Below, piece by piece: positions 1 through 25,283 of a stretch of 28,618 nt of DNA. This DNA is from a virus: IMG/VR virus record IMGVR_UViG_3300017527_000286, positions 1 to 28,618 of that record. The stretch is one strand, 5' to 3'. Both the position numbers and the translations under genes were made by a program. Below the pieces are notes generated by a model. The model had not been told where the DNA came from and made no database searches. It saw nothing but the letters and a program-made list of their open reading frames with translations. Position 1 is the first letter of the stretch. Each line of letters opens with the position of its first letter.

Positions 1-181
1 AACTATTAGTTTTCGGGGGCAGGGCAGGGGCCAACTATTAGGTTTAAGGGGGCCAACTATTAGGTTTAAGGGGGTCAACTGTTAGGTTTAAGGGGGTCAA
101 CTGTTAGGTTTCGGGGGCTTATTGTTAGGTTTAGGGGGATCAACTGTTAGGTTTCGGGGGCTTATTATCAGGTTTAGGGGG
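1..181. repeat. Iteron array, eight ~21-22 bp direct repeats (probable plasmid origin)
   Basis: Eight direct repeats are visible, with units beginning near 1, 33, 55, 77, 99, 120, 142 and 163. The core is close to AACTGTTAGGTTTAAGGGGG, with variants in the first four bases and in the AA/C/A before the G run. Spacing is 21-22 bp except between units 1 and 2 (32 bp), so most copies fall on the same helix face. The array ends about 37 bp before a Rep_3-type initiator gene. In iteron plasmids such repeats bind the Rep protein for origin opening and often for rep autoregulation. The array may continue left of the window. I see no clear DnaA box or AT-rich melting region in the visible part. Confidence 0.88.
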
Positions 182-218
182 AGGTTCACAGCGTTGCCAT
201 GGTGAGGTAATGTGAAGC

Positions 219-1103
219 ATGAGCAACCAGCGCAAAGTCATATACCTAAAGCCGTCGTTTGACGAGGCTATTAAGCCGTCTGAACTGATACAAATCACGG
301 GACATCAAGAACTTAGCCTGAATGCCAGACGTGCGATCAGTGTTCTGTGGCATAGCGCGCATCGTCAAGGAATCGAGCAAGGCAAGCGGTACACGATTGC
401 GCTTTCCGATCTGCGTACTGATCGTAAGAAGGGTAATGAGTGGATTGACGAAACGGTCGAACAGTTAATGAAAACGGTTCTGCGCGTTAAGCTGTCCAAC
501 GGCAAGACCCGCCGTGTTCAGTTTCTGGGCGGTAACGACATGGATGACAGTGATCGACCGGAAGGTACTTTGACCTACAACTTTGATCCTCTTCTGGTGG
601 AGATTTTGCGCGACAGCTACATCTGGGGTCGGATCGAGGTGCCTGTTTTAATGACCTTCAGCTCGAAATATGCCATATCTCTCTATGAACACGTTTCGCA
701 ATGGGCCAACCTGGAGTACAAATCGACCGAAGAATACTCTCTGAGTGAGTTTCGCGAAATGTTGGGGGTCGAAGATAACAAATACCGTCCATTTGGTGCT
801 TTCAGGAAGAATGTGATCGACCTTGCTGTAATGGAGATCAATGGTCTGGCGCCATTCAATATCAGTATTGTGCCAATCAAAACCGGCAAGCGTGTGACGC
901 ACATCAAACTTGGCTGGTGGACAAAGACACCCGACGAGCTGCGTGAAGCCTATAAGGAAACTCAGCGATCCAGGGTAGGGCGTAAGGCTCGACTTGCCGG
1001 CAGAGTGGAGCAGGTCTCTAAACCATTGCCTCGAATAGAAGAACAGATTAGAAAGATGAGGCTGCGACCCCCCGAAACCTCACATTTGATAGATAATGAA
1101 TGA
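219..1103 (+). CDS. Plasmid replication initiator, Rep_3 family
   Basis: This 294-aa protein resembles Rep_3 (RepA/RepB/RepE-type) initiators, which bind iterons as monomers and recruit host DnaA and helicase. The family pattern shows in a first winged-helix region at about residues 32-135 and a second at about 140-235. The second contains SKYAISLYEHVSQWAN (149-164), LSEFREMLGV (175-184) and a basic strand ending in HIKLGWW (228-234). The C-terminus is basic. The ATG at 219 has a GAGG-type ribosome binding site at 204-207 and sits just after the iterons, so autoregulation by iteron binding is likely. It is the only accepted gene on the + strand and converges on the phage operon. Function is confident from the motif pattern plus iterons; copy number and partner genes cannot be seen. 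Confidence 0.92.
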   Translation: MSNQRKVIYLKPSFDEAIKPSELIQITGHQELSLNARRAISVLWHSAHRQGIEQGKRYTIALSDLRTDRKKGNEWIDETVEQLMKTVLRVKLSNGKTRRVQFLGGNDMDDSDRPEGTLTYNFDPLLVEILRDSYIWGRIEVPVLMTFSSKYAISLYEHVSQWANLEYKSTEEYSLSEFREMLGVEDNKYRPFGAFRKNVIDLAVMEINGLAPFNISIVPIKTGKRVTHIKLGWWTKTPDELREAYKETQRSRVGRKARLAGRVEQVSKPLPRIEEQIRKMRLRPPETSHLIDNE

Positions 1104-1347: not shown

Positions 1348-1599
1348 CTAATTGCCCCATGCCGCTCTTTTGTTCATTTCGATGAACTCATCCAGATCGA
1401 AGCAGTCGATCACATGCCACTCATGTTCAAACATGTCGCGGATCTCATCTGCGGAAGTGTCTTCGTCCTCTCGCGTCGCGGCCATTGAGGCATAAGTGTT
1501 TTCCACCGCTTCCGCGGGGTTGCTGGCCTCTGTGATTTCACCGAAGCTGTCGCCTTCTGGGAAATTGTCCCAGGTGACGGTTACATAATACCGCCTCAT
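1348..1599 (-). CDS. Small acidic protein, unknown function
   Basis: This 83-aa acidic protein is the last gene of the - strand operon. Its ATG overlaps the TGA of the ligase gene (ATGA, 1596-1599), indicating translational coupling. It opens with RRYYVTVTWDNFPEGDSFGE, a beta-rich amphipathic stretch, followed by an acidic helical segment rich in D/E (about residues 40-60), and ends in FIEMNKRAAWGN. There is no membrane segment or signal peptide. I do not recognise a named family. A role accessory to DNA metabolism is inferred only from position. Confidence 0.75.
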   Translation of the reverse strand: MRRYYVTVTWDNFPEGDSFGEITEASNPAEAVENTYASMAATREDEDTSADEIRDMFEHEWHVIDCFDLDEFIEMNKRAAWGN

Positions 1600-2978
1600 G
1601 CTGCCGCCTTCGCCTGGTCAACCATCATTGCCATCGACTTGTGATCCATTGCGCGCGCCAGCGTGTCCGTCTCGGACTTATCCTCGTCACGAAACTCAAT
1701 GAAACGCGGGTGTGAAAGCGCGTGGTGATCGTTGTCGCGCCCTTTAGTGATATCATTGCACGTCACCGTGATGATCTTCCCGACACACCAGTCACGCCGG
1801 GAATTGAAATCTTCCAGCTGTGCATTGGTGAACCCGGAGGTGCGCCCCTTGATCAGGCCGTCATCCGTTTCAAACAGCATCGAGCCAAAGGTTTTCTCGC
1901 GCACCGTGCCTGGTGTGCCTTCCAGAAAGCCTGTAACGCGCACATCCACGTCGATCTCCAGCTTGAGTTTAAGCTGTTGCAAGCTGGTGCCGTCTCGGAA
2001 GATTGCGCCCCGTTCTTTGATGATCGTGCCTTCAAGACCGCGGTTCATCACTTCGGCGGTGTATGACAGCGCCTCGGCCATGCTGTTAACGCTTCGGCTT
2101 TCAATCGCGCGCACCGGGTTTTTCAACGGGTCGGTATTGAAGGGTGCAAACAGTCGCTGAACGATCTGGAAGCGCTTGTCGTAAGGCACCGTGCCTTTGA
2201 TCTTGGCAATGGCGTTATTGTATTCCTTTTGACCCACGCAATCCCAGCAGTCAAAGACCACCTTGCAGTTCTCGGGAAAGTCGTCTTTGCGCAGCAGACC
2301 ATTGCCAGTTGCGCGATCCAACAGCTTCCCGTCGCGGTAAACTGTCAATTCGCCAAAGTAGACCGCGCTGAGCGGCTGACGTACCAGTTCCGCGTTGATT
2401 TCAGGGTAATGATACTCCTCACCCTGGCGCGAAATGCATGTGACCCGTCCGTTCTCGACGTTGAACTCACGATAGGTGCCGTCAGCCTTCAGCTGGACGA
2501 TAGCGCGGTCCATGTTGAATTTCTTCGCCGTTTTCTCGTTGTATGTGCCGCAGCGCATGTAGACCGGCTTGACGATCAGACCTTTGAACACCTTGTTGAT
2601 GTTGGATCGGCCCATATTGATGCGCAGATCGCGATCAACAATCTTGGTGAAGACAACGGCGTCCTTGTCTTCAAGACCGTTGTGAAGTTCGCCAAGAAGC
2701 TTGAGCGCCGCATGGCCTGTTACACTGCGTGTTGCAAACCTGGATTGAAGAACATTCAGCGCCTGTTCAAGCGTGAGTGTTCCAGATTTGACTGACATTG
2801 GGTCATATTCAAACAGGGCGTTCTTCATGGTCACGCCATAGGTGAACGTCGCCTTGTCATAGGTCATTTTCAGAACCCGTTTGAGCAAGTCGCTGTCGGC
2901 GTGTTTTCGCAACACGTCCATCTTGTGATTGGCGCCATTGTCGGCGTTTAATTCTTCGATAATTGCGTGGATTGTCAT
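1596..2978 (-). CDS. ATP-dependent DNA ligase, phage T4 type
   Basis: This 460-aa enzyme would seal nicks in double-stranded DNA through an enzyme-AMP intermediate. The nucleotidyltransferase motifs appear in order: motif I KADG at residues 164-167 (K164 is the adenylated lysine), motif III FGEL at 208-211, motif IIIa VFDCWD at 241-246, motif IV EG at 316-317 and motif V KLK at 337-339. An OB-fold-like C-terminus follows. Length and the N-terminal helical region (LLKRVLKMTYD, then ATRSVTGHAA) resemble T4 gp30 rather than short viral ligases. ATG at 2978 is preceded by an AAGGA site and overlaps the upstream stop (ATGA). It probably repairs Okazaki fragments with the primase and helicase of the same operon. 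All catalytic residues appear intact. Confidence 0.95.
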   Translation of the reverse strand: MTIHAIIEELNADNGANHKMDVLRKHADSDLLKRVLKMTYDKATFTYGVTMKNALFEYDPMSVKSGTLTLEQALNVLQSRFATRSVTGHAALKLLGELHNGLEDKDAVVFTKIVDRDLRINMGRSNINKVFKGLIVKPVYMRCGTYNEKTAKKFNMDRAIVQLKADGTYREFNVENGRVTCISRQGEEYHYPEINAELVRQPLSAVYFGELTVYRDGKLLDRATGNGLLRKDDFPENCKVVFDCWDCVGQKEYNNAIAKIKGTVPYDKRFQIVQRLFAPFNTDPLKNPVRAIESRSVNSMAEALSYTAEVMNRGLEGTIIKERGAIFRDGTSLQQLKLKLEIDVDVRVTGFLEGTPGTVREKTFGSMLFETDDGLIKGRTSGFTNAQLEDFNSRRDWCVGKIITVTCNDITKGRDNDHHALSHPRFIEFRDEDKSETDTLARAMDHKSMAMMVDQAKAAA

Positions 2979-3762: not shown

Positions 3763-4053
3763 TTACCACGTCCCTCGTACCTCGTTTAGAGTCAGGCTTG
3801 CTTCGTGTTTTTCAGTCTCTTGTCGTTCTTTTTCCTGGGCGTCGCCAATGCTCTGGAGAATGACACTGGCCAAACCCTTGAGTTCGTCCTGTGACAGGTC
3901 TTCAAGGCTGTCGATTATAATGCTGAGGGGAACTATGACCTTCCGGGCTTCAACCACGGTCGCTGGAATAGTGATATTTCTGAACGAAATAATATCGTTG
4001 GAGACGATATTATTTGTTGTGATTTCACCCACCGGGACAGTGCTGACAGTCAT
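3763..4053 (-). CDS. Small protein, unknown function
   Basis: This 96-aa protein has an ATG at 4053 that overlaps the TAA of the WGR gene by one base (TAATG), so it is coupled to it. Residues 1-50 are beta-rich and hydrophobic (EITTNNIVSNDIISFRNITI, then VIVPLSIIIDSL). Residues 50-96 are helical and charged (QEKERQETEKHEAS). Only mild hydrophobicity is seen, with no clear membrane span. A long inverted repeat sits within the codons for the NNIVSNDIIS region, and an operator-like GACAGTGCTGAC lies at 4036-4047 near its start. No family was recognised. Confidence 0.7.
   Translation of the reverse strand: MTVSTVPVGEITTNNIVSNDIISFRNITIPATVVEARKVIVPLSIIIDSLEDLSQDELKGLASVILQSIGDAQEKERQETEKHEASLTLNEVRGTW
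3987..4015. repeat. Intragenic inverted repeat, 12-bp perfect arms, 5-base loop
   Basis: AAATAATATCGT at 3987-3998 and ACGATATTATTT at 4004-4015 are perfect reverse complements around TGGAG. The repeat lies within the 96-aa gene, so a strong transcript hairpin or a protein-binding site is possible. A separate perfect 12-bp palindrome, AATGATATCATT, lies about 100 bp away at 4110-4121 inside the WGR gene. Confidence 0.7.
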
Positions 4054-4487
4054 TACCAGCTACCCCAGAGGTCACCGCGATCAATGGTTTCATCTAAAAC
4101 AGGGGTATCAATGATATCATTGGTATCATTCTCCATCAGCCACTCCCTTAAATAGCTGTTAAGGGGATCGTTGTACTGTGACATGAATACTATGTCGCTT
4201 AGTTCGGTAGCAGGTTTACCTGCCTGAAGTTCTTCCAAGAAGGTTAAACGCACCTGGCCGGCTTCCTTATAGTCACGCTTGACGCGTTTCGCGGTCTCAA
4301 GCGCAAGTTCCTGACGGGCTTTTGGTGCTGATTGCTTGTGGCCGTATTTAACCTGGCCATTTGCGCAACGCTTTCCCCAACGGCGAATAATCTGACCCTG
4401 GCCGGTTTCACTGTCCTCAAGCTTGATTAGATGATAGGTCTTTGACCCGCTCTCATGATCAAATTGATATATTGATACCGTTCGCAT
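4053..4487 (-). CDS. WGR-domain protein
   Basis: This 144-aa protein matches the WGR domain, a small beta-rich module known from PARPs, MolR-type and other nucleic-acid proteins. The signature is TYHLIKLEDSETGQG (17-31), IIRRWGKR (33-40) and a conserved GQ (44-45), followed by a helix with SAPKARQELALETAKRVKRDY (53-73). In PARP1 the WGR domain contacts the 5' end at a DNA break. The C-terminal ~45 residues are acidic with a repetitive NDTNDIIDT segment. Start ATG 4487 has only a weak GGGAC-type site. The gene lies in the ligase transcription region, so a DNA-end or nick-related role is plausible but inferred. Domain call is fairly confident; function is not. Confidence 0.8.
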   Translation of the reverse strand: MRTVSIYQFDHESGSKTYHLIKLEDSETGQGQIIRRWGKRCANGQVKYGHKQSAPKARQELALETAKRVKRDYKEAGQVRLTFLEELQAGKPATELSDIVFMSQYNDPLNSYLREWLMENDTNDIIDTPVLDETIDRGDLWGSW

Positions 4488-4558: not shown

Positions 4559-5629
4559 TCACCCCACGCGCAATTTCAGCAGATTGATCGGCGTCAAAGT
4601 CACGGCGGCATCGAGCGCCGCGGTGGTTTCAAGTGCTGACAGGTCGCCGGGGTCTTTGCCTTTCGGAGGTCTGGCGATCTTTACCTTGAACCCCATGCGT
4701 TTTAGATCACCCGCCGCGATCAGTGCCTTTTCATAGGCCGCATCCTCGCTGTCCCAGAACATAATGATATTGCGCAGACCCCAGGATTTGAGCCGCAGAA
4801 ACTTGTTCTTCTGGTCGTTGCCGTCCTGCCCCTTTGACAGGTGAATGCCAAACGAGCCAACGACGCCGTGATCCTTGTAATCGGTCTCACGAACATTGAC
4901 CCAAGTGCGAATCACGTCAAAGGCGCCTTCGCACAGAATAAGGGAGGCTTTATGCGTGGCGTTCTGACCATTATAGAGAAAGCGCCCCGTTCCCGGCAGC
5001 CCAGGTGGGAAGAGATATTTGCGATCACTTTCACCAGACAGATCACGTCCCTGAAATGTCACCATCGTGCCGTCCAGATCATAGATCGGAATGAGAACGC
5101 GATTGGCGAAATTCATGCCGCCATGTTCACCATCGGGCTTGGTGTAATTGAACCAGCCATCATCGCAGTATCGCAGGTGGAAATAAGCGGAAACTTTATC
5201 ATCGACACGCCGGTTGCGCAGATAGCCGAGGTTTTGACCGTCTGCGGTTGGCAGCGGGAAGGAATCGGGCAGCTTCCAGTCTTTGTTCGCTTCAACTTCG
5301 GTTTGCGTTTCAACGCGCTTCTTTGGTCGCCACCCCATCTCCTTAGCCAGACGTTCCAGATAGAGAAACGTATCCCGCCTGGTCTTGGTCGTCAGTGCTT
5401 CGGTGAATGAAAAGGTGTTGAATGTCTCACCGCAAGAGCCGTGAAAGCAGTTGCCAAGGCCGCTGTCACGGTTGGCGTAAACCTTCCACGAACTGCCGCC
5501 GCAGAACGGGCATTCATGGATATTCAACTGCTCACCGGATGACCCGTGACCCAGCTTGTAATCCACGCCTTCGCGGTCCAGCACGTCCTCAAGCAGAACG
5601 GCGTCCAGAATGTCTCTGATTTCGCTCAC
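4559..5629 (-). CDS. DNA primase (zinc finger plus TOPRIM)
   Basis: This 356-aa protein would synthesise RNA primers for lagging-strand replication. A zinc-binding module is formed by C40-x2-C43 and C61-x-H63-x2-C66. A TOPRIM domain follows, with LILCEGAFD around E234 and IIMFWDSED with D293 and E295/D296 as metal-binding acids. This matches the T7 gp4 primase half and other phage primases, without a fused helicase; the helicase is a separate gene just upstream. The start is a GTG at 5629 whose GTGA overlaps the stop of the 53-aa protein, so translation is probably coupled. The stop at 4559 is followed by a short regulatory gap. Confidence 0.93.
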   Translation of the reverse strand: MSEIRDILDAVLLEDVLDREGVDYKLGHGSSGEQLNIHECPFCGGSSWKVYANRDSGLGNCFHGSCGETFNTFSFTEALTTKTRRDTFLYLERLAKEMGWRPKKRVETQTEVEANKDWKLPDSFPLPTADGQNLGYLRNRRVDDKVSAYFHLRYCDDGWFNYTKPDGEHGGMNFANRVLIPIYDLDGTMVTFQGRDLSGESDRKYLFPPGLPGTGRFLYNGQNATHKASLILCEGAFDVIRTWVNVRETDYKDHGVVGSFGIHLSKGQDGNDQKNKFLRLKSWGLRNIIMFWDSEDAAYEKALIAAGDLKRMGFKVKIARPPKGKDPGDLSALETTAALDAAVTLTPINLLKLRVG

Positions 5630-5787: not shown

Positions 5788-5906
5788 CAGAAGAACGCCC
5801 CTATGGAGTAGCCGATGCAGCCACCGATTACGAGCAAGCTGACCGCAATGATCAACGATGCGCGAATTACGCCTGGCATGATGTGACTGAATGCACTTGA
5901 GTCCAT
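5787..5906 (-). CDS. 39-aa single-span membrane peptide
   Basis: This short reading frame encodes 39 residues: a polar N-terminus (MDSSAFSHIMPGVIR) followed by one strongly hydrophobic segment (ASLIIAVSLLVIGGCIGYSI). Its ATG overlaps the helicase TAA (TAATG, 5904-5908) and its TGA overlaps the next ATG (TGATG, 5785-5789). These tight junctions on both sides, with no gap to explain otherwise, support it as a gene. It would insert into the inner membrane. Its position between replicative helicase and primase is unusual; a replisome tether or a Rz/holin-like accessory are both only guesses. Confidence 0.65.
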   Translation of the reverse strand: MDSSAFSHIMPGVIRASLIIAVSLLVIGGCIGYSIGAFF

Positions 5907-7219
5907 TAGATGCCGCCCTTTCCAAGAACCTTTGTGATGAACGTTGCGCGAGACAGGTCTTGCTCGATGTTCAGGACATAACCGCTTGCCATGTTGCGAA
6001 CGGCCGCCATGAACAGTCGCGCTTCGTTTGCTTCGCGCTCTTCTTCTGTTGATGAGATAGAAAACATGACGTCAGCCAGACGCACCTTGTTGAAGTCCTC
6101 AGCCGCGTGTTCGGCCTTGGTCAGAGCGGCTTTAAACCCGTCCCTGTTTGACTGAATGGCCGTGACAACAGCCAGGTTCTCGTCCTTAGCCAGAGCGCGC
6201 AGCCCCATGCCGACGCTGGCGCTTTCTCGGATATGATCATCGCGATACGACACGTCCGGCGCCATGATGTCCCAATAGTCGCAAACGATCATGTCAAAGG
6301 TGATGCCTTTGGCTTTGTATGTCTCGACCAGACGGCGCAAATCCTTGGGGGCAAACGTTCCCGTTCCATATTCGTGGATCTTCATGATACCCGCGCTCGA
6401 CAGAGCGGCGCGTACCTTTGTTTCCACGTCATTGATGTGTTTGAGAATGTCGTTGGTGCAGACCTTGCTGAGATAAGCGTCGATCCGGTCAGTGGTGACT
6501 TCGACGGAGTTCTCAAGCGTGACATAAAGCACGTTCTTGCCGGCCACCTGTGCGTTCACCGCGAAGTTCATCAGTCCAAATGACTTGCCACCCTTGGCAG
6601 GGCCAAGCAGAACGGCCAGTTCTTTGCGTTTGAAACCGCCGCCCAGTGCATCGTCCAGTTCAGTTGAGCCAGTTGAGATACCCGCCTCGACTTTGCCTGT
6701 TGCCAGGTCCAGTCTGCGCTGTGTTCGCGCGTCGATATCATCTGTCAGGTCATGACCAATCGACCCATCATTGGCAGCAACCTGAAAGGCGGCCGTCATA
6801 TAGCCCTCAACGGAGTCAAAGTCGTGATCTTCCATTGCCGGGATGGATTTCTCCATCGCTGCCATAATGGCCTGGTGTCGGGCAAAGTCTGAAACTTCCT
6901 CGATCACGTAATCCCGATCAGTCAGATCAACGGTCTTTAAGGCTTTGAACGTGTCGATCACATCGTCGCGCTGGTCTGCCCGAATGATCTTCTTCTTGAT
7001 CGCTGTGCCGAGAACGTGTTTCCAGGCCGTGTCGGAGGGAAGTGTTTTGAATCTGTCCCAGAAGGTTTTCGACAGCGACACCAATTGCGCCTCTGACTCG
7101 TTGAGAATGTATGACGGATCAATCAACCCTTCGGTGCGAATATTGAACGTAACGTCCCGTATCGCCAGTGCTGCGATCTTGGACTGAAAGTCGTCGTCAA
7201 AATCATACGCGGCGCTCAT
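5906..7219 (-). CDS. Replicative DNA helicase, DnaB/RecA-fold
   Basis: This 437-aa protein is a ring-type helicase core. Walker A is GPAKGGKS (206-213), Walker B lies in FDMIVCDYWD (309-318, D314), and a conserved glutamine motif VVTAIQSNRDG (351-361, Q356) senses nucleotide. The ~180-residue N-terminal part is helical, in the place of a DnaB-type N-domain (FWDRFKTLPSD, DYVIEEVSDFARHQAI). The preceding TGSTELDDALGGGFKRKELAVL is a classical KaiC/DnaB entry into the RecA fold. Start ATG 7219 overlaps the upstream stop (ATGA). It should unwind DNA 5' to 3' ahead of the fork with the primase encoded three genes further on. Confidence 0.92.
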   Translation of the reverse strand: MSAAYDFDDDFQSKIAALAIRDVTFNIRTEGLIDPSYILNESEAQLVSLSKTFWDRFKTLPSDTAWKHVLGTAIKKKIIRADQRDDVIDTFKALKTVDLTDRDYVIEEVSDFARHQAIMAAMEKSIPAMEDHDFDSVEGYMTAAFQVAANDGSIGHDLTDDIDARTQRRLDLATGKVEAGISTGSTELDDALGGGFKRKELAVLLGPAKGGKSFGLMNFAVNAQVAGKNVLYVTLENSVEVTTDRIDAYLSKVCTNDILKHINDVETKVRAALSSAGIMKIHEYGTGTFAPKDLRRLVETYKAKGITFDMIVCDYWDIMAPDVSYRDDHIRESASVGMGLRALAKDENLAVVTAIQSNRDGFKAALTKAEHAAEDFNKVRLADVMFSISSTEEEREANEARLFMAAVRNMASGYVLNIEQDLSRATFITKVLGKGGI

Positions 7220-7479
7220 GTGATAGTCTTCTCAATGCTTATCATTGAGGACTTAAAGAACAGCGCGATGCCCGCGTTCTGCGCTTCAACCAACACGGTG
7301 TAGCGATCAAACGCCTTGAGGTCGTAAAACCCTTTCTTGCCATCCGTGAAAACGATAGTGACTCGCTTATCAATTAGATCGTTCAGGAATTGCTCATGCC
7401 CCCAAGCACGGGGAATCGAGAGTTTCTTACGCGCAGGGGCGCGGTTGTTGTAATTGTCTTCGATTTGCTTCAAAACCAT
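7216..7479 (-). CDS. Hfq/Sm-like RNA-binding protein
   Basis: This 87-aa protein resembles Hfq. After a basic 27-residue extension, EQFLNDLIDKRVTIVFTDG (29-47) parallels the Hfq helix and first strands ([22 protein letters not shown]). FDRYTVLV (57-64) parallels FDQFVILL, and FFKSSMISI (74-82) parallels VYKHAISTV. The Hfq glutamine and lysine equivalents are present (Q30, K76), but the YKH signature of the proximal RNA-binding face reads FKS. Established Hfq forms hexameric rings that bind small RNAs and mRNAs; cyanophage-derived Sm-like proteins are also known. It is translationally coupled to the helicase. I infer an Sm fold; RNA partners, oligomer state and role are unknown. Confidence 0.7.
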   Translation of the reverse strand: MVLKQIEDNYNNRAPARKKLSIPRAWGHEQFLNDLIDKRVTIVFTDGKKGFYDLKAFDRYTVLVEAQNAGIALFFKSSMISIEKTIT

Positions 7480-8245: not shown

Positions 8246-9034
8246 TTATTCGGATTTACGGGTGATGAAACCTGGCAATTCAAGTTGATGGTCCTCGTCG
8301 CTGTCTTGTTGCTCGTCGTAAGCGTCAAGAATCTCCCGAACCAAACCGTGTCGCACGATATCATCCCGGTCGAACTCGACTGCCCCGACCTGATTAAGAT
8401 AACGTATCTTTTGATAACCGTCAATAAGCCCTGACTTATCATTTGTCATTTGCTGATCCGGGTCGCCATCGATGACAAGACGTGCGCCATCACCCATGCG
8501 GGTTAGAAACATCTTCATCTCCGCAATGGTCGCGTTTTCAGCTTCATCGAACAGCACCATGCAGGGTTCATCAAAGCTGCGCCCTTGCATGAAGTTCAAC
8601 GGGACGATTTCGATCTGTTCTGATTTCATCATGTAATCAAAGTGACCTCGCCCCATCCCGTCCTCGAACCCGCGTAGATAGCTGGCGATATACGGCGCCA
8701 TCTTTTCTTCCAGATCACCTTTGAGAAAACCGATCGGACGACCGGATTCCACAGCAGGTCGAGTGAGATAGACCTTCTTAATGTCTTTGTTCAGGATAAG
8801 TTGTGACGCGACCCGTGCTGCGCAATAGGTTTTACCGACACCAGCTGGACCGATGCCGAATGTGATCTTATTCGAGCCGATGGAAGAGATGTACCGACGT
8901 TGCGCTTCGGTCTTAGCGGTGAGCGGTTCTTTGACAGCTCTGGGAGAAGGTCTTGGAGGTAGGTTATTATTATCATATCCGAGGTTTGTTACGCGGTCCT
9001 GGCGCTTTGATTGGCGCTTCTGCCTCTTAGACAT
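8246..9034 (-). CDS. phoH: PhoH-like P-loop ATPase
   Basis: This 262-aa protein has a basic N-terminus (MSKRQKRQSKRQDRV) and a PhoH ATPase core: Walker A GPAGVGKT (62-69), RPIGFLKGDLEEKMAPY (99-115), which is diagnostic for PhoH, and Walker B MVLFDEAEN (159-167). DGDPDQ follows at 189-194. PhoH-type genes are common in marine phages; the biochemical role is unsettled, with RNA-related ATPase or helicase activity proposed. ATG 9034 is preferred over a TTG at 9037 because AAGGAG is seven bases from the ATG. A TATAAT lies about 30 bp upstream. Confidence 0.93.
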   Translation of the reverse strand: MSKRQKRQSKRQDRVTNLGYDNNNLPPRPSPRAVKEPLTAKTEAQRRYISSIGSNKITFGIGPAGVGKTYCAARVASQLILNKDIKKVYLTRPAVESGRPIGFLKGDLEEKMAPYIASYLRGFEDGMGRGHFDYMMKSEQIEIVPLNFMQGRSFDEPCMVLFDEAENATIAEMKMFLTRMGDGARLVIDGDPDQQMTNDKSGLIDGYQKIRYLNQVGAVEFDRDDIVRHGLVREILDAYDEQQDSDEDHQLELPGFITRKSE

Positions 9035-9044
9035 CAAGTATCTC

Positions 9045-9164: not shown

Positions 9165-10571
9165 TCAGGTAAGAAATATCGCTTCATCAGCGGCTCGGGT
9201 GTAATATTCGCCGCCAAGAACACAATGATCCTGAATCTGAATATACTCAAACACGGAGTGCTGCGTCTGCGTGTCACAATGGACAACCATGATGCCGTTC
9301 TGCCAGATTTCGCCATCCATGAAGTCTGCACGACGGCGTTGACCGCCACCGAGTTGATGAAACTCACAGGCGCCAAAGAACGGATTGAAGAACGGCCAGA
9401 CCTCATGCTTGTGGTGATGACCGCCCCAGCCAGGGATGCGCAGATTACGCCGCTGCGGGTAGTGGCAGCTGAGCAGACAATCCCAATAGATCTTGAAGTT
9501 GCGGCTCAGTTCTTTCTTCACGTCCGCTTCGGTGAAAGCTTTGAGGCTGGCGGTCCCGGTGAAGCTGATCTCGAACTTGTCGAGCCCTAGAAGCTTCGGG
9601 ATATCCATGCCGTGCAGATCGGACAACAGCACCTTGAGAGCCGGTGTGCTTTCGCTCAGATGCCGAAACAGGCGAAACTCGTGATTACCTTCAATGAAAT
9701 CCATCTGTGCGTCAGGGTTATCCTCGCGCAACGTCGAGAACATATCGTGGTTCCATTCGATCTCGCCCATCACATCGAACTCACGCGGATCGGTGGTGTA
9801 TTTCGAGAAGTTAGGCAGGTCGAAGAAATCGCCGTTGAGATTGATGACGTCTGGCTGAATGCGCTTGTTGGCGATTTCAAACATGCGTCGCACGAAGGGG
9901 TCGCATTTCAGCCCATGAAAGTCTGTGCCGACCAGAATGGTCTTGAAGCGGCGGCCGTTGTCGGATCGATCATATTTGCCCGCATATGACCGTTTGAGAT
10001 CCGTGAGGTCTGACATCTTGTCGGTCGAGGCGTGTTTGCCGATCGCCATTTCGACCTGGTGCTGGTGCCGAGATAATTCCAGGCCAGCTTGACGGCGAAA
10101 CTCGTTGAATGTGCCGAAGTAGCGGTTCCAGGTTGCGTCAGAGATATTGGAGTTGATGCGAAAGCTGTTGCGCGTGATATGAACCAAAACACCCTTTTCA
10201 TCCGACAGCATCTGAACCACTTCGTTGAGGTGATCGAGGCAATCTTGATCAGTCCAGTCTTTGCGGTATTTGCGCAGATCTTCCGACAGAGGGACGACGC
10301 TGCCGTTATTGTCGCGCATCTGACCGATCTTCAGCGGCGCTTCGTCTTCCTCTTCTTCCACCAGAGTTGGGCTTTGATCACGTCCAGCGGCAACCCGTGA
10401 GGCAATCTTGTCGATGCCTACCTCCCCTGCCCTCACTTTTGCTCTGATCTCACCGACGATGTTCTGTGCGCGGCTTTTGGATATCTGCATTTCATCTGCC
10501 ACGTCCTGCATTGTGGGGAAATTGGCGATATCGTTATAGATGGCAATGAACTCATTGATATGATCGGTCAT
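9165..10571 (-). CDS. Metallophosphoesterase with N-terminal helix-turn-helix
   Basis: This is a 468-aa protein. The C-terminal half carries calcineurin-like phosphoesterase motifs in order: GTDFHG (215-220; D217, H219), NGDFFD (246-251; D248), EGNHEFR (294-300; N296, H297), SCHYPQ (368-373; H370) and GGHHHKH (383-389). The N-terminal ~45 residues contain a helix-turn-helix-like segment (PTMQDVADEMQISKSRAQNI). The middle ~150 residues are helical, with an acidic linker VEEEEDEAP. Such phage enzymes may be nucleases (Mre11/SbcD relatives) or phosphatases; the HTH suggests a DNA substrate, but this is inference. ATG 10571 has GGAAG four bases upstream, after an operator-like site. Confidence 0.88.
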   Translation of the reverse strand: MTDHINEFIAIYNDIANFPTMQDVADEMQISKSRAQNIVGEIRAKVRAGEVGIDKIASRVAAGRDQSPTLVEEEEDEAPLKIGQMRDNNGSVVPLSEDLRKYRKDWTDQDCLDHLNEVVQMLSDEKGVLVHITRNSFRINSNISDATWNRYFGTFNEFRRQAGLELSRHQHQVEMAIGKHASTDKMSDLTDLKRSYAGKYDRSDNGRRFKTILVGTDFHGLKCDPFVRRMFEIANKRIQPDVINLNGDFFDLPNFSKYTTDPREFDVMGEIEWNHDMFSTLREDNPDAQMDFIEGNHEFRLFRHLSESTPALKVLLSDLHGMDIPKLLGLDKFEISFTGTASLKAFTEADVKKELSRNFKIYWDCLLSCHYPQRRNLRIPGWGGHHHKHEVWPFFNPFFGACEFHQLGGGQRRRADFMDGEIWQNGIMVVHCDTQTQHSVFEYIQIQDHCVLGGEYYTRAADEAIFLT

Positions 10572-10702: not shown

Positions 10703-11293
10703 CTACCTTTCCCTCTGGTTACGTCGGTTCCATTCGAGAATGACATCATTGGTCATCGGCTCGGACCCAGCCATTCCCTGTTGGAATTCCTCTTCGCTCA
10801 CTTCGGCTTTGCCTGGGGTGGCTGCGATTTCCTGAGACAGAGCTGCATAGGCGCGCTGGTTCTCGATCACTTGCGGAGCAAGCGTGAGGTTCGAGCTAAC
10901 ATCAAAGCTGTGCTTCTTAGCCTGCCAGCGGCCGCCAAAGTAGAAAGAGACGACCACGCCGAGTAGCCACCACATTGGTTCAGGGACCAGGGTGATCCCT
11001 TCCATGCGTGCGGCAAACCAGATCGGGTCGAACATGGCAGAGAGAAAGAGTGCGATGATTCCTAGAGCAAAAGCTGGCCGCGGGATACGGTTCAAGCCAT
11101 CGATCAGGCTGTCAAACACGCTTTGGCGGCCGCGTGGGGCGAATTCACGCGCGTATTGATCTAGAACGGCTGTGCTTTCATCATGAATGCGCTGCGCTTG
11201 TGCTTCGGCGTTGGGGCGAAACACTTCGACAGTATCCTTGATGACGTTGCCGCTGCCGAACAGAGCGCCAAAAACCTGGCTCAACTTCCCCAT
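10703..11293 (-). CDS. Holin, GTA-type 3TM family
   Basis: This 196-aa protein matches the holin family described for gene transfer agents and many alphaproteobacterial prophages. Diagnostic stretches are RPNAEAQAQR (26-35), QYAREF (46-51), FDSLIDGLNRIPRPAFALG (60-78), MFDPIWFAARM (87-97) and SFYFGGRWQ (116-124). Hydrophobic segments lie at about 73-90 and 105-121, with a possible third short one. It should form inner-membrane lesions that release or activate the endolysin. ATG 11293 overlaps the endolysin end by 13 bp, so expression is coupled. The C-terminal ~70 residues are hydrophilic and cytoplasmic-like. Confidence 0.87.
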   Translation of the reverse strand: MGKLSQVFGALFGSGNVIKDTVEVFRPNAEAQAQRIHDESTAVLDQYAREFAPRGRQSVFDSLIDGLNRIPRPAFALGIIALFLSAMFDPIWFAARMEGITLVPEPMWWLLGVVVSFYFGGRWQAKKHSFDVSSNLTLAPQVIENQRAYAALSQEIAATPGKAEVSEEEFQQGMAGSEPMTNDVILEWNRRNQRER

Positions 11294-11910
11294 TTAGAGA
11301 TCCGAGCCTGGAACTGCGCCGTGGTCATGTGATATTTGGGATCAATGAACTCCTCTGCCCGCTTGATCCAGCCACCTTTGCCGCCGAGGCGTGTACGTGC
11401 GTATTTGCGGCTTGTTGGGCGACGATCTGCGAGGGAGAAGTAGTAATTGCGCCGCTCGATGCCGTAAGCATCGCGGATCAAATCCCCCATCTGCTTATGT
11501 GCGGCCGTGACCTTGGCAATGGTGATCGGCCCGATGGCCCCATCAGCTGAGATTGCGTTCCCTGTATCGGGGATTAGGTTGCACATGCGTTGCAGAATCT
11601 TGACGGCGTTTGAGCCTGAGTTGACCTGCATGTCAAAGACAGTGGCGTGCAGACATTCCGGTAGCTGTGCGATCTTCGGCTTCTCGAAGTAATGGCGAAT
11701 GAAGATTTGCGTGGCCTGGTCAACGGTCAGCAACTGAACGTCCCGGGTATCAACATCGCCGTCTCTATCCAGGTCGAGGCCGAGGCTTCGCATTGTGCCG
11801 ATTGTGACGCCGTATTTGGTTGCACCGCCTGGATCGTGAGGGTCGTTCACATAGCCCCCTTCTCGTTTGACGATGGCGGAGGCGATATTGAAGACAGAAG
11901 GATAACTCAT
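11281..11910 (-). CDS. Endolysin, glycoside hydrolase 108 with PG_binding_3
   Basis: This 209-aa enzyme should hydrolyse the peptidoglycan glycan strand during lysis. The GH108 N-terminal signature is IVKREGGYVNDPHDPGGATK (13-32), with E17 of EGGY as the catalytic glutamate, then YGVTIGTMRSLG. A C-terminal PG_binding_3-like part includes QVNSGSNAVKILQRMCN and DGAIGPITI. No signal peptide is seen, so it depends on the holin for export. ATG 11910 is preferred over 11955 because the upstream extension overlaps the preceding gene and GGA lies just before the ATG. The gene starts 10 bp after the XhlA-like stop. Confidence 0.93.
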   Translation of the reverse strand: MSYPSVFNIASAIVKREGGYVNDPHDPGGATKYGVTIGTMRSLGLDLDRDGDVDTRDVQLLTVDQATQIFIRHYFEKPKIAQLPECLHATVFDMQVNSGSNAVKILQRMCNLIPDTGNAISADGAIGPITIAKVTAAHKQMGDLIRDAYGIERRNYYFSLADRRPTSRKYARTRLGGKGGWIKRAEEFIDPKYHMTTAQFQARISKWGS

Positions 11911-11920
11911 GAGAATCCGA

Positions 11921-12271
11921 TCAGTAGATAATGTTGACAGCGACGGGTGTGGCAAAGGCCAGCAGCATCACCATGCCGATGGCGAGCCAGACATATTTGG
12001 ACAGGCGGTTGTAGGATTTGGCATGTCTCTCATCAACGGCCCGAATTTCTTCACGAGCTTTTTCGCGCTCGCTGTCCATCCGGGCTTCGAGCTTTTCCAT
12101 GCGGGTTTCCGATCTATCCTGTCGATCCTGCGACCGCTCAAGAAGCGCTATGGCTGTGTCCACTTTGCCATCAACTCGAACTATGACGTTGGACAACTCG
12201 GTCATGGTCTGACGAAGCTCCTTATGATCTTGCCCCAGATTTCCCAGGACTGAATAGTCAATGTCGCTCAT
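11921..12271 (-). CDS. XhlA-like coiled-coil membrane protein
   Basis: This is a 116-aa protein. Residues ~15-90 are a highly charged helix with heptad-like spacing (KLEARMDSEREKAREEIRAV), probably a coiled coil. Residues ~92-113 are a single membrane span (KYVWLAIGMVMLLAFATPVA). This layout resembles XhlA-type lysis accessory proteins, which act with holin and endolysin. It is the first gene of the lysis operon, with ATG 12271 preceded by CGAGG, and follows a good sigma70-like promoter. An antiholin or spanin-like role is an alternative; no lipobox or signal peptide is visible. Confidence 0.72.
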   Translation of the reverse strand: MSDIDYSVLGNLGQDHKELRQTMTELSNVIVRVDGKVDTAIALLERSQDRQDRSETRMEKLEARMDSEREKAREEIRAVDERHAKSYNRLSKYVWLAIGMVMLLAFATPVAVNIIY

Positions 12272-12289
12272 GTGAAACCTCGCTTATTC

Positions 12290-12340
12290 ACTAAGTCAGC
12301 GCTTACTTAGTATTGTACCCGAATGAACACCGGAAATCAA
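12290..12340 (-). promoter_or_regulatory. Sigma70-like promoter of the lysis operon with overlapping operator
   Basis: On the - strand, TTGATT (12340-12335) and TACAAT (12317-12312) are separated by 17 bp, the best -35/-10 pair in the window. Directly downstream, a 22-bp near-palindrome at 12290-12311 (one mismatched pair) contains the operator-like 12-mer GTCAGCGCTTAC (12295-12306, + strand). A bound regulator would cover the transcription start of the lysis genes. Confidence 0.7.
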
Positions 12341-12346
12341 TCAGCG

Positions 12347-12745
12347 TCAGGGCCAATATTTGTCATCTATGAAATCAGCTGGAATGATCGTCATATCCTT
12401 CAGCGTGCGGGCGGCAAACACATGCGCTGATTTATGCGCCATCGCTGCCTGAGAAAAAGCGAAACAGTCATGTGCGTCCATCAAAACAGACAGGTTGTTC
12501 TTTGCCAGCCATTTGAAGTCTACCGCAGCATTTGCCCAGCGATAGTCGTTAACCGAGGAACCGAGAGCGACAGCGATACCGGCACTTGACCCGGCGCCAT
12601 TGATATTGGTGATCGCTTCAGTATCGAAATCAAACACGTTGCCACCGAACGTAAACCCCAGTTCAAGGCGGCGCTGACGTTCAGCCATGACCAGTTTGCA
12701 CATACGAGCGTGGCGGGCATCTTTGTTTATACCAAGCTGTATCAT
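12347..12745 (-). CDS. DUF4376-like tail-fibre associated protein
   Basis: This 132-aa protein fits the DUF4376 pattern found in small proteins encoded next to phage tail fibres: RRLELGFTFGGNVFDFDTEAITNI (25-48), a YRWANAAVDFKWLA stretch (68-81) and a closing helical segment (DAHDCFAFSQAAMAHKSAHV). Members of that family often occur as tail fibre assembly or C-terminal fibre modules. ATG 12745 overlaps the preceding stop (ATGA). The gene ends just before the lysis promoter. Function as fibre chaperone or minor tip component is inferred. Confidence 0.65.
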   Translation of the reverse strand: MIQLGINKDARHARMCKLVMAERQRRLELGFTFGGNVFDFDTEAITNINGAGSSAGIAVALGSSVNDYRWANAAVDFKWLAKNNLSVLMDAHDCFAFSQAAMAHKSAHVFAARTLKDMTIIPADFIDDKYWP

Positions 12746-13137
12746 GGGATGATCACCTTCGTTTCGAAGTCGAGGAAAGGAAAGGGGCTGTCAAAGGAGC
12801 GAACCGTGTAAACGCCCGCTTCCGTGAGTTCCAAGGTGTCATCCTGTGCGGCGATCTCAGTCTCAAAACCCTCTTCGTCAGTGATCATCAGTTTTGCAAC
12901 TGGTTGCAACTGGTTCAGATCATATGTTGCAACTGTCATTGGTGGCACTCCGGGTCTTGGCAGAACAACTTTAGGATCAGCTAGGATATCAACGTAGTAG
13001 GTCTGCCACTCTGTTTCCTCAGTTGTTAAAACAGAATCCAACCCAGTTGGCCTATTCTGTTCGATTTCAACCTCGTCTTGCAGGTCTTTTACGTCTAGTA
13101 TTTTCCCCGTGGAGGGGGCGTAGTATGCGATCTGCAT
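12742..13137 (-). CDS. Small tail-tip associated protein, unknown
   Basis: This 131-aa beta-rich acidic protein begins MQIAYYAPSTGKILDV and contains RPGVPPMTVATYD (61-73). It ends with LELTEAGVYTVRSFDSPFPF (101-120) and DFETKVIIP. Proteins of this style commonly sit between the tip protein J and fibre assembly genes in siphophages. ATG 13137 follows the J stop by three bases, with AGAGG formed by J's last codon and stop. The stop overlaps the next ATG. No enzymatic motif is visible. Confidence 0.65.
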   Translation of the reverse strand: MQIAYYAPSTGKILDVKDLQDEVEIEQNRPTGLDSVLTTEETEWQTYYVDILADPKVVLPRPGVPPMTVATYDLNQLQPVAKLMITDEEGFETEIAAQDDTLELTEAGVYTVRSFDSPFPFLDFETKVIIP

Positions 13138-13140
13138 AGC

Positions 13141-16100
13141 TTACCTCTTTGTTTCAATTACAATCAGGTCACAGTTTGTACCGTTTCCAGAGGTTGAGAA
13201 TACAATCTCTACATCAGCAGTGGAGGTACCCTTCCATGTGACCATAGATTTACCTGTGGCAGAACTACTGTCAGGGGTAAAATCAAATCTTTGAGCTGTG
13301 ATACTACCGCCTTTGATAACACCGTCTACTTTCAATTGTAGAGTTGCCGTTGCTGCACCAACACCTGTAGTTGTGATCTCTCCGTAAAGGATTGCGGTAT
13401 ACTCGCCAGTCCAGTCTGGTGTGAAGGTAATAGACGGTGAGTTAGCACTACTTTTGCGAACCTTAGTTAGCTGATTACCCCCGCCGACATTGCTTGTTTT
13501 CACGCCGCCGGTTGAGATACGAAGATTATCACCGTCCGCAGTTAGAGTAAGGTTGTCCAGTTTGAGTTTTGTAGCCTGAACAGTTGTGGCTGCAATATGA
13601 CTACCTGTAATAGCCAAGGCATCAATTTGGGCAGATTTAATAGAGTCAGCTTTTAAGTGTACTGTGTCAATTTCACCCGCCACAATATGGTCAGCTATAA
13701 TACTACCTGTTTCAATGCTATCGCCATCAATTACAGTTTTACCATAAGCGGTGGATATGCTTACACCGCCCTTATAGGCGCAAACGATGATACGATCATC
13801 ACCTGTGGCCGTAGATTGGTTGGTAGAAGATCTGAGGAGATTTTCACCATACTTCCAGTAAACATAGAAGATACCTGAAGTATGAACAGAGCCGATTTCA
13901 CCAGCGGCAATACTGACCTCTTGGTTTGTACCATTATCATCTAAGTAACTCATCTGCCCTTGGTTCCAACTCAGACGATCAGTCTGCGCGGCCCCGCTAC
14001 TTCTGTAGTTACCGCGGAATTTAACACCGCTCAAAACAGGACCGCGAATTCCTATTGTGACTTTGTTGGCTGTAATGGTGTTGGCAGAGATTTCGCCACC
14101 GTCGATCTTCGTCAAATCCCCACCCATGCGCCAATCACCTAGAGTGGTGCCACCGTTGATGGTGATTTGACCGGGGTCGATTTTGGTGCTTCCCGGTATA
14201 TTCACAACAGCGCCGGGATCGGCAGCGGCGTCGTGGATCGTCTGCAAAGCAGTGCCTGACACGGTGATCGTCGAAGCCAGAGCCGTTCCTGCTGTCAGTT
14301 TTGCCGCACTCAGGTCTGCGATCTTAGCGTTCGTTACAACGCTGTTTTTGATGTTAGCAGTATTAGCAATGATTTCATTTGTGCCAATATGATCAGCGAT
14401 GATCCCGCCATCAACGATCAACTCCCCAGCGTTTTTCTTATACAACTCGACAGCGCCAAAGTTTGCCTTGGTCGCTGTGCCGATGTTGCTTTTGATAAAA
14501 CGAAACCGAGCGTACTTCATCCCTGCGGGGATGGTTATTGTCCCAGATCTTAACGTTGGTGAGGTACTTGTGACCGAACTCATGTAAATGTCTGTACGAT
14601 TGGTCATGTCTTGGGAGGCACTAACTTGAACATCCACATAGCAGCCACCAGTTGTACCGTCTTCAATATCCGCTACAAACTTGAATACATACTCTTCACC
14701 CTCTATGACGTTAAACGGCTGTTTGGGTGCCAAGTGGGAGTAGAGAATTAGGTAGCTTCCTGCTGTCCCAAGCAACCTTAGCATCCTTGGGGAGCGGTAA
14801 GCCGCAACTGATGTTGAGTGATAACTTTTGTTGCTGCCCGTGACCCCACTCACATAGTCTTCATCTAGGTGGTTAGGGTCCATGTAGTAGTTTGTGAAGT
14901 CACCTATGCCGACCTTGGATGCAACGAGTGCATTTACAGCGATCTGATCCGCACCGATTGCACCAGCTGCAATGGTTCCTGCGGTGATCGACGAAGATAT
15001 GATGTCGCCCCCGTCAACGGATTTAGTCCAACCTGACCCGTCATAACGATAAAGCTTATCATCAGTTGTCAGGAGCGCCATGCGGCCTTCGAAGTTACCT
15101 GTGGTCGGCAATGTGCCAACGATCTCAACAGGTGACAGATTAGCTGCAACACTGGCTTCAGCGATGATATCTGAAATGTCTGCCGAAATGAGACCAAGCG
15201 TAGTTGTCGTCTTAACGGTAGACCAGTCAGACTGATTGCCAGACGTGTCTACGGCGCGAACCCAAATATATTTCAGTACGCCGTCACCTAAACCAGTCCA
15301 TGCGAAGGACGCGGAATAGGAGGTGAAATGAAAGGCTGCTCCTTGATCGGTCGGCGCCGAATTCGAGGCTGCATGGTAGATCTCATAATGAGATAGATCA
15401 CTTTCCGTGTTTGGTGTCCATTCTATCCAGATACTTTCGAAACCAGGTGTCAAAGAAACTCCCGACGGCACAGCTGGCGGCGTTGCGTCGGCTATGACGG
15501 TATGAGTCACTTCGCCGGAGTAACTTGAGCGCTCCCCAAGAACGTTTCGCGCACGCACAGAGGCGTGATACTGCTCACCTGGCAGTACATCCCACTCCTT
15601 GCGATTGGTACCGGCATTGACGGTGACGTCATTGCCGCCATTTATTCGGATCTTGATGTCGTAAGTTACGTCATAACCTGAGACTGCACCCCATGTCAGA
15701 ATAAGCTTCGCCTTGCCATCTGATTTCAGAGTTGACGAGAACGCCACGCCAGTTGGCGTTGAAACTGTTCCGGTTTCCGGCGCTTCGATGATCGGAACAA
15801 TATTGATGTATGCGGTCTTGTCGCTTTCATTACCAGAGTGATCCACGGCGCTGATCTTGTAGCGCGTGTAATTGTCATCAGGGTCAGGGCGAAATACTTT
15901 GTAAGCGTCAGCCGTCACGGCGACACGAGTTAGATTTGTGCTACCTGCCGTACTGGCATAGATACGAAATCGCTTGAAGTCAGTCGCGGGGCTTTCATCA
16001 CCGCTGAAAGTGATCGTGTCAGGCCCAGAGATCGCGTACCAGTTCGTCGGGACGGGAGGGGCGAGTGAGACCCCCTGAATTGTTATCGACGCTGTAGGGG

Positions 16101-19100
16101 CGCCCTGTGCGACGAGAATGTCGTTTCGCTCATAGGAGAGGGATACGACACGCACGATGATAACGTCGCCAGCATCGGCACGAAAGCTTTTACGCTCGCC
16201 ACTGACGCGGCCCACGGTCTCAAAGCGCTCGCCATTGACTGACTTCTGAACCTCTGCACCTGTATAGATCCCGGTAGCTGGAGGATTCCAGGTAGCTTTC
16301 ACTCTGGATTTGAACGAACCGTCTTCCTGCTCGATCAGTTTCTCCTCAACAGCCAGGTCGGTAACATGTTCAGAAAGAGTTAGGGAAGAATAGTTATGAG
16401 TCTGCGCTTCAGGATCATCCGAATAGACCTCTGGAACAAACTCGACGGCCGACATGCTGACGATACCGTCTGTGGCACGACCGATCGTTTTGACGCGGAA
16501 AGGTTTCTTGGTGAACGAAACCTCGCCAAAGATATAGCTGGAGTATTTGAGCGGCGCACCGGAAGGCAGGTTGCTATCGAGATCAATGACACTTGCGGTT
16601 ACATTGGACCCGACCGCCGGGTTGGTGACAGTGACGTCATCGAGAACATCGGTATTCCACAACTCAGCAGAGAGACCGTTGATCGACAGGCCGTCTGCAC
16701 GTTCTTCCAGAAGAAGGTCAGTCGTGGTCGTGCCAGGCAGAATGCGCGTGATACCAATGTCCAAACCAGAGCCGGAATGAACCAGACGACGAATAGGTGT
16801 GTTATCAGGCACCAGCCAGTCGATGGTGATAAGGTTCGAGGACTGAGCGATGACATTCACGGACTGAATGTTATCAGAGTTCTGGTGCAGGACGACCCGA
16901 TAGGATTTGCCAGGGGAGAAAGTGACGTCGCGATCAAGTGTTAGCTGGGAACTGGTGCCGTTTAAAATGCGACCGCCAGTTCCCCAACCAGGCATTTCAT
17001 GCTGCACGACGATCATGTCGCCTACAGAACAGCTGACTGCTTCAACAGGGCTCTTCCATTCAGCAACGCGACTGACCAGGCGGTTGTAGTTCATACGGAA
17101 CACGCCTTCTTTCAAAGCGCGGTTCTGAGATGTTATCCCTTTAAGCGTCACTGTGGCAGGCTTGAGCGCTTCACCGCGTGCCAGGGCTGCGTCATTGGTG
17201 ACACGTACAGTACGGCGCTTGTACTTGTCATTCTTGTCGTTGAAGGACAGCTCAATATCATTGATTCGATCTGCGAAAGGTAGGTAGGTGATAGAGAAGC
17301 TGTTCTTGAGCATATTGCCCGAGCCAAACATCATAGTCGGAACTGAATCTTCGCGATCTATTGCAACCGAAAGCTTGGCCCCGGATGACACTCTCTGTGC
17401 GCGGCCCGCGATGTAAACATTCTTGAGGGCGTCATCAATGTTGCCACCTTCATAGAAGACCGCATTGAAGGTCAGACTATTAGCGTCACAGTGATCCCGC
17501 CAGTCCGCGTGTGCTGCGAAATCAATACGCTCTTTGTCTATCTGCGCGCCATAACGATTATTGATGTAGATGTTTAGCGCGACATCGGCCGGGTTGTTGC
17601 TGTAAGCCACATCTGTCGCATTGCCGTTGTGGTCGTAGATCACCATGACCCGACCTTTAGCAACACCAGTGATGGTTGGAATCTGATTGAGCTGACCCGT
17701 CAGTCTAATCTTGACGCCAAGCCAGGCTGTGTAAGGCAGAGAGACCTTATCAACGATGATCTCACCCACGTCGGACAGAATAACCTTGTCGAGCGTGGTG
17801 CTGGAGCCGGTTTGCTCAGGCGTGGTTCGCTTATAGCGAATCTCATACTCACTCTGCTTGAGAACAGGCGTCCGAAACGAGCGTCGCACGGTCTGATTTG
17901 TTTCATCCGACATGTTGAGCGCACCAGGCGTTTCAAGCCAGACGGTTCCTAATTCAGAAACAACGTTGGTGCCTGCCGTGATTACAACCTGATACTCCCA
18001 GGCGTTATCTGTGAGGTCAGCTTCTTCCCAGACTAGGGTATCTGCACCAAGCGGACTGACAGTGCCGTCATATGTGTCCAGATCGATCCAGGCCGTGACG
18101 GCATCCTTTATGCGATACTGAAGTTTTGCGCTGTATGTGGAGTTACCCGCTTTCTCGTCAGTGAGGGTCGATTTAATCTCTGCATTGACCTTGAAGGCAG
18201 TTGAAGTGTCTGTATCAAGGGCTCGCACGGTCCAGCTGAGCATATTACGCAGCTTCCTCCATGTCCCGCCTGTCTTGCGATACTCAACCTCGATAGGCAC
18301 TGTAACAGCTATGGATCTGCCGCGGTCATCCGTAACCTGCAAGCCAGCTGGCGCGGTAAAATCAATCCGAATGCGGTCCACTTCCTGCGATGTGGTGTAC
18401 GTCTGCCAGCTTTCGGTTAGATCTTTCGCCTGGTTGACCAATGTAATGGTCTCATCAAACCAGTTTGAGACTTTCTGCGAGCGGTTGCCTAGACGGTAGT
18501 CCCATTCAACATCGTCGTAGGTATCGATCTCCTGATCGTTCAGGTAGACGTCCGTCACGCTGTCAATCGGACCCTCTGAAATAGCAGTACGTGCATAGAG
18601 AAACTGAATTGCCTTGCCGTCATCGTCGGTGGAGTTCTCTGTGTAGAGATCAATGATGTTTCCACCAAAGCCGTGCTTGCCGAACAGAAGCGGCACTGGA
18701 ATACCTTCGGAGCTGGTATTCTTAGGACCATCGATACCATATGCCTGATCATCGGCCAGTGAATCATTTTCTGGCGCCGGGATCATGGCAGAAATTAATA
18801 CTCCGCCCGCGATGGATACGGCCGCAGTTGCTAGGGTTCGTGCAAGCTGCGTGCCGCCAAGCAAGTTACCAAGGGCGCCGCCTGCGATAGGAGCGAAGAC
18901 CGACAGGGCAATGGTTGCGACAAGCGCCATTACTGCCTTGCCATTATCACCGCCGCCGCCCCCACCTTCAGGAACCGGGGTTACAATGACATGGCTGTCT
19001 GGTTTTGGAAATGTAAGCGCAAGACATTCGGTTGGAATAATGACGCCATCAAGAACAACCGTCCATTCGATGTTATCAGGCAAGTCATCGACATAAGCCG

Positions 19101-19212: not shown

Positions 19213-19654
19213 AACGATAGGCTCCAATAATCTGGCGTTCGAACCGATTGGTTCGGCTTTCTATGACTCCGAAACCTTCAAGAGATTGAAGGAAGCGAGT
19301 GTTCGTGTGTGCGAAACCCACATGGGCTCCAAATCCTCTGACCCGCATCAGCAGCACCGCACCTGGTTTGATGCTGGGATTTTGTTCCCAGAGATGACGA
19401 CCTGCGCTTTCCATGACAGACGCATTAACTTTCGGTGAGCTGGAGGATCGGTAGTCTGGTAGCTTGATCCCGTGCCATCGTTGGTAACAAATCTGGATAA
19501 GACCCCAGCAGTCCAACGAAGTCGGCCCTCGTCCACCGTATTCGAATTCTACCCCAATCAGGTCACTGAAACAAGTCATCGCTGATTGATTATCTCGGGC
19601 GTATGCCGGGAAATCCCCCGTAACGGAGGGCGTTGTCATGAGTTGCGCATCCAT
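19190..19654 (-). CDS. Tail NlpC/P60 peptidase (lambda K-like)
   Basis: This protein is 154 aa from ATG 19654, which follows AAGGA with four bases spacing; ATG 19639 is an alternative. The NlpC/P60 motif SLDCWGL places the catalytic cysteine at C49, and GFGAHVGFA the histidine at H111. Such tail-tip enzymes cut peptidoglycan peptide bonds during DNA entry or help tip assembly. The gene overlaps the gpL-like gene by 65 bp and the J-like gene by 23 bp. No lambda I-like partner was seen between it and J. Confidence 0.9.
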   Translation of the reverse strand: MDAQLMTTPSVTGDFPAYARDNQSAMTCFSDLIGVEFEYGGRGPTSLDCWGLIQICYQRWHGIKLPDYRSSSSPKVNASVMESAGRHLWEQNPSIKPGAVLLMRVRGFGAHVGFAHTNTRFLQSLEGFGVIESRTNRFERQIIGAYRYVGHLDR

Positions 19655-24276: not shown

Positions 24277-24282
24277 TTTCCC
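24242..24282 (-). promoter_or_regulatory. Programmed -1 ribosomal frameshift site
   Basis: On the - strand, G-GGA-AAC (24282-24276) lies in the zero frame of the G-like gene, as X-XXY-YYZ requires; lambda uses the related GGGAAAG. The zero-frame TAA is two codons further on. A stem with 6-bp arms ACGGCT (24269-24264) and AGCCGT (24247-24242) begins six bases after the heptamer, a favourable distance. The -1 frame stays open into the T-like sequence. Confidence 0.87.
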
Positions 24283-24635: not shown

Positions 24636-24658
24636 TGTTTGATCCTGAGTTATGAGGG

Positions 24659-24704: not shown

Positions 24705-24713
24705 TAAAACGAC

Positions 24714-25238: not shown

Positions 25239-25283
25239 ATTCTTAATTCCTTCTTCAGCTGGTAAGATTCATGCATGTGTTGT

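Follow-up and report, generated by a model that had tools for sequence, protein, structure and literature searches.

The window, which spans the whole of a linear IMG/VR virus record of 28,618 bases, is very probably a phage-plasmid fragment: about a quarter of a roughly 100–120 kb siphophage of the SSU5 supergroup that would be maintained as a low-copy plasmid, probably in an alphaproteobacterial host. Structural and lysis phage genes lie on one molecule with a plasmid initiator, the combination by which phage-plasmids are recognised. The phage-plasmid reading of the original prediction is well supported by synteny with circular phage-plasmids and isolated phages that carry an initiator in the same place, by a related contig in which the same junction runs on into a ParA gene, and by the absence of a recognised integrase in the window. 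This would extend the SSU5-type alphaproteobacterial phage-plasmids to a Rep_3 iteron replicon. The features of the window are as follows.

1–182, plus strand: array of eight iterons in direct orientation, each ~20 bp (AACTGTTAGGTTTCGGGGG type); putative plasmid origin (oriV), cut off at the contig edge
185–216, no strand assigned: inverted repeat TTCACA...TGTGAA just 5′ of rep, possible Rep operator
219–1103, plus strand: rep, Rep_3 initiator of 294 aa with an ATG start and two winged-helix domains, identified by Pfam and by profile comparison with structures
1069–1090, minus strand: ninth iteron, inverted, within the last rep codons (AAATGTGAGGTTTCGGGGG), probable control site
1191–1234, no strand assigned: inverted repeat ACCCGGGG...CCCCGGGT where the rep and ligase operons converge, possible terminator
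1348–1599, minus strand: small ORF of 83 aa, no family above cut-off
1596–2978, minus strand: ATP-dependent DNA ligase, conserved neighbour of the proposed maintenance slot
4053–4487, minus strand: WGR-domain protein
4559–5629, minus strand: DnaG-like primase (DNAG_N; TIGR01391 below its cut-off)
5906–7219, minus strand: DnaB-like replicative helicase
7216–7479, minus strand: small Hfq-like protein (score under the Pfam cut-off), encoded immediately upstream of the helicase gene
8246–9037, minus strand: PhoH-like ATPase
9165–10571: metallophosphoesterase (phrog_20266), beside the lysis genes
10703–11955, minus strand: lysis genes, GTA-type holin and GH108 endolysin
13141–26108, minus strand: siphophage tail module, with tip J-like protein, NlpC/P60, protein L, tape measure, tube/Ig protein, tail terminator and HK97-gp10-like protein
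26464–28610, minus strand: neck/head-proximal ORFs with homologues in pAMS5a and SSU5

The tail, lysis and replication genes had been described as a full set, which is fair. The replicon had also been placed at the end of a siphophage genome, and this does not hold, as position 1 is the contig edge of a linear 28.6 kb fragment and not a genome end. Complete related elements measure 100–122 kb, and the plasmid records that best match the helicase are elements of about 105–118 kb. At the right end, the last ORFs have homologues in pAMS5a and SSU5 that adjoin the gene for the major capsid protein, which suggests that the contig breaks off shortly before that gene. Genes for capsid, portal or terminase were not recognised in the truncated contig, which also contains no par genes or lysogeny repressor; capsid and terminase are present in pAMS5a and RHph_X66. 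Scans of the window for tRNAs, Rfam families and sigma-70 promoters returned nothing, and no defence genes were found among the ORFs of unknown function that were tested.

The predicted Rep_3 initiator was confirmed as a complete gene with iterons beside it. Both of its winged-helix domains, WH1 and WH2 (PF01051/PF21205), exceed the curated Pfam cut-offs, at 35.7 versus 22.4 bits for Rep3_N and 53 versus 21.1 bits for Rep3_C, and the family profile matches the structures of the pi and RepE initiators. The eight iterons also stand where they had been placed, starting at positions 1, 33, 55, 77, 99, 120, 142 and 163 (spacings of 32, 22, 22, 22, 21, 22 and 21), which gives a period of 21–22 bp after a degenerate, weak first copy (TTAGTTTT) that 10 extra bases separate from the rest. 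The motif T[TC]AG[GT]TTT[ACG]1-2GGGGG has eight matches in the window, all within 1–182, and 200 sequences simulated for the whole window with a first-order Markov model never contained it (mean of 0 matches). As the array touches the contig edge, further iterons may be missing. The iterons had been described as very G-rich on one strand; the G-richness is an ordinary trait of the family iteron, and the G-rich strand folded as DNA showed no special structure (z-score of −0.36). With about 16–17 nt between them, the G5 runs are too distant from one another to form a compact quadruplex. Across the wider Rep family, TGTGAGGnnTTCGGGG is the common sequence and presumably the unit that Rep would bind. 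A search of viral contigs for the exact iteron of the window gave 22 single matches and no array, and these were taken as chance.

Homologous arrays occupy the same place in L076, L077 and L002, and also in the independent contig L008, but there with a different sequence. Two layouts were seen. In the window, L076 and L077, and with another repeat unit in L008, many copies precede rep and one inverted copy lies at its 3′ end; in the mirror layout of plasmids L003–L006 and contigs L083 and L092, one or two upstream copies are accompanied by about four to seven inverted copies downstream. The inverted copy of the window (1069–1090), which the original prediction had missed, is 91% complementary to positions 139–160. 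It differs from its own array at 2 of 19 positions and from that of L008 at six, and the inverted iteron of L008 has one mismatch to its own array and eight to that of the window. The inverted copies of L076 and L077 have three to four mismatches to their own arrays with no clear preference for them, so this co-variation rests on two genomes, the window and L008. Between genomes the amino acids encoded at the site vary, and its DNA changes in step with the array, which points to conservation of the DNA as a site for Rep; because it follows the array of its own genome, it is probably a real Rep site. In RepFIB and mini-F, upstream iterons form the origin and downstream iterons its copy-control partner (PMC11983097). 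The window likewise has iterons on both sides of rep, for which we infer the same roles, although it has a single inverted downstream copy and no DnaA box was seen in its replicon. By analogy with RepFIB, the inverted iteron likely serves copy control, and would then offer a simple handle on it.

The arms of the repeat at 185–216 (TTCAC...GTGAA) are oppositely oriented to the GTGAA...TTCAC repeat that precedes rep in most relatives and is absent from the window. At 9440–9500 of L008, 3′ of rep, lies a near-perfect 26-nt palindrome with two iteron-like halves (AAAGGTTAGGTTTATGAAC), which could be a Rep operator or a terminator.

These elements suggest how the replicon may work. While the phage is a lysogen, monomers of Rep_3 would occupy the eight iterons and open the origin; partition of the copies would fall to ParA and a small ribbon-helix-helix partner, whose genes are expected immediately past the contig edge. 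As Rep accumulates, its dimers would handcuff the array to the inverted iteron at the rep 3′ end and so limit copy number. Once induced, the phage would rely on replication proteins of its own, namely the DnaB-like helicase, the primase, the ligase and probably a polymerase encoded beyond the window. It is also conceivable, if unlikely, that one replicon serves both lytic and plasmid replication, with Rep loading the phage helicase at a DnaA-free origin and no clean switch of mode. No DnaA box (TTWTNCACA, up to one mismatch) was found at positions 1–1400 of the window, which lacks the left flank of the array, or in L008, where the region searched ran from about 1.2 kb upstream of rep to about 1.5 kb downstream of it. 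These two loci are the ones that encode the phage helicase as well; perfect boxes lie within a few hundred bases of rep in L002, L004–L006, L083, L092, L076 and L077, the last two having a separate phage backbone. However, this absence concerns two loci, one of them truncated, and the lack of a consensus box carries little weight as evidence. Rep in the window might recruit the phage helicase directly; we favour the inferred switch to the phage's own replication proteins.

The gene order of the window matches that of SSU5-supergroup phage-plasmids, the closest being alphaproteobacterial (pAMS5a and RHph_X66/B1VFA). It has the homologous tail genes and the helicase–primase–ligase order used to define the supergroup, a definition that also includes tyPPing protein-profile thresholds and a size of 85–134 kb, the window being only a fragment. 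The circular Methylobacterium plasmid pAMS5a (NZ_CP006993, 117,697 bp) matches 14 of 30 window proteins and shares the order tail, lysis, PhoH, helicase, primase, WGR, ligase and initiator; in contrast to the window, it is without Rep_3, and the initiator beside its ligase is RepC. SSU5, of which half was compared, matches 11 of 30. RHph_X66, B1VFA and V1VFA-S are siphophages of 118–122 kb; of these, B1VFA was isolated and purified from plaques and forms siphophage particles (PMC12509600). Both RHph_X66 and B1VFA, which we examined, show the order of the window up to an initiator on the opposite strand, with PhoH, helicase, primase, WGR and ligase followed by RepC, HTH, CobT, CobS, a sigma factor and DNA polymerase III alpha. 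They differ in that the initiator is RepC (PF03428) rather than Rep_3, the helicase is 38% identical and the host is Rhizobium. A circular 106 kb Cupriavidus element has PhoH, Hfq, helicase, primase and ligase, then TrfA, ParB-like and MipZ/ParA genes, and then HTH, VWA and MoxR. The supergroup members SSU5, pHCM2, pMT1 and AB (PMC12977533) share the siphovirus type and homologous tail proteins, helicase and primase with the window. A Rep_3-class initiator is likewise present in SSU5 and Acinetobacter AB, but it belongs to another subfamily and lies elsewhere (59.4–60.5 kb in SSU5; before hfq in AB). Hfq is annotated in the Cupriavidus and Acinetobacter phage-plasmids at the same place as the Hfq-like gene of the window.

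The junction between ligase and rep recurs in L008, which encodes a helicase (73% identical), primase (69%), ligase (68%) and Rep_3 initiator (59%), followed by iterons, a ribbon-helix-helix gene and ParA. As L008 continues from its iterons into ParA, a ParA gene is expected just left of position 1. The repetition also makes it unlikely that the adjacency is an assembly accident or a single insertion next to a host plasmid. A chimera of a phage contig and a plasmid contig might be suspected, since the window is a fragment assembly from a public virus collection with its edge in tandem repeats; yet the same adjacency was assembled independently in L008 at 59–73% protein identity, and G+C content shows no clear break at the junction, so that we regard such an artefact as extremely improbable.

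We compared what follows the ligase in related genomes, a convenience sample rather than a count of independent exchanges, in which a search with close helicases gave no relatives' genomes and a broader alignment gave eight loci. The interval between the ligase and HTH/CobT genes holds Rep_3 in the window and L008; RepC in pAMS5a, RHph_X66 and B1VFA; TrfA, ParB-like and MipZ genes (Cupriavidus, L035); RPA and a recombinase (Magnetospirillum, L040); RepA_C and a recombinase (Roseospira, L041); a helix-turn-helix protein with ParAB in L012 and L015; and ParA or ParAB alone in L013, L026, L036 and L043. It is empty in L014, L016, L017, L021 and L022. A tyrosine integrase followed by host-type genes takes the position in L045 (13811–16968) and, less tightly linked, in L044 (14366–19535), and host-type genes appear soon after the ligase in the genome assemblies L039 and L042.

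The last four loci speak for an alternative in which the window is an integrated prophage whose DNA ends between ligase and rep, its border happening to lie beside the rep of a usual host plasmid. In its favour, too, members of the Rep family are common on plasmids. Against this, no integrase was recognised among the main ORFs of the window, whether between ligase and rep or elsewhere, the same junction is found in L008, although its helicase, ligase and Rep have diverged by 27–41% from those of the window, and initiators occupy the same slot in circular relatives and complete phages. We therefore consider integration at this border very unlikely for the window and keep to an extrachromosomal element. 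L044 and L045 are apparently integrated members of the group, and they deserve a check because complete genomes are reported to hold P1-, N15- and SSU5-type elements solely in extrachromosomal form (PMC9600943).

The survey points to change of the initiator at one constant place in the genome, with the phage backbone staying as it is. Phage-plasmids in general carry variable plasmid genes on a conserved phage backbone. We give even chances to a broader proposal, that the ligase-to-HTH/CobT/MoxR interval is an exchangeable maintenance slot and that swapping its cassette turns one backbone into a lysogen kept as a plasmid, an integrated lysogen or possibly a virulent phage, with plasmids and the L076/L077 backbone sharing the Rep_3 cassette of the window. 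We found no description of a ligase-to-CobT slot in the literature searched. A similar colinearity is known from cluster A mycobacteriophages, where parABS replaces the integration cassettes of relatives (PMC7157519), although those phages are unrelated and exchange mainly parABS for integrase, whereas here many unrelated initiators are involved. If the proposal is true, the exchange of lifestyle could be tested in an isolated Rhizobium relative, by asking whether the lysogen is a plasmid or integrated once the slot cassette is removed or replaced. The helix-turn-helix proteins of L012 (17850–18902) and L015 (16751–17881) lie beside ParB and ParA and matched no known Pfam Rep family; they are possibly undescribed initiators.

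As to the source of the replicon, Rep homologues with a common iteron core and arrays beside rep were found, and the closest cultured ones, 54–58% identical, lie on alphaproteobacterial plasmids in which no phage genes are annotated. Thioclava p5, Paracoccus pPspOM44, Pukyongiella p4, Acuticoccus p4 and Acidibrevibacterium share the iteron core of the window and have ParA near rep; in contrast to the window, the main array is downstream of rep in four of the five. A search of annotated phages with Rep gave no match. Among viral contigs, a scan with the single protein likewise found no relative, and one with a seven-sequence alignment found 19 loci, the closest being L076 and L077 (64%). These contigs of 36–46 kb have a different, smaller phage backbone with an endolysin and, in L076, a tape-measure gene. 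In both, a ParA–RHH–iteron–Rep_3 module is followed by lysis and tail genes encoded on the opposite strand. The Rep tree joins the window and L008 as sisters only at 58/87 support, and thus does not separate vertical inheritance from exchange of rep.

Among the near relatives, the metallophosphoesterase is the best-conserved protein (75% identical in L007, and 87% over 205 aa in L008), exceeding helicase and ligase. L007 has about 3.6 kb extra between helicase and primase (11300–14893) compared with the window and L008.
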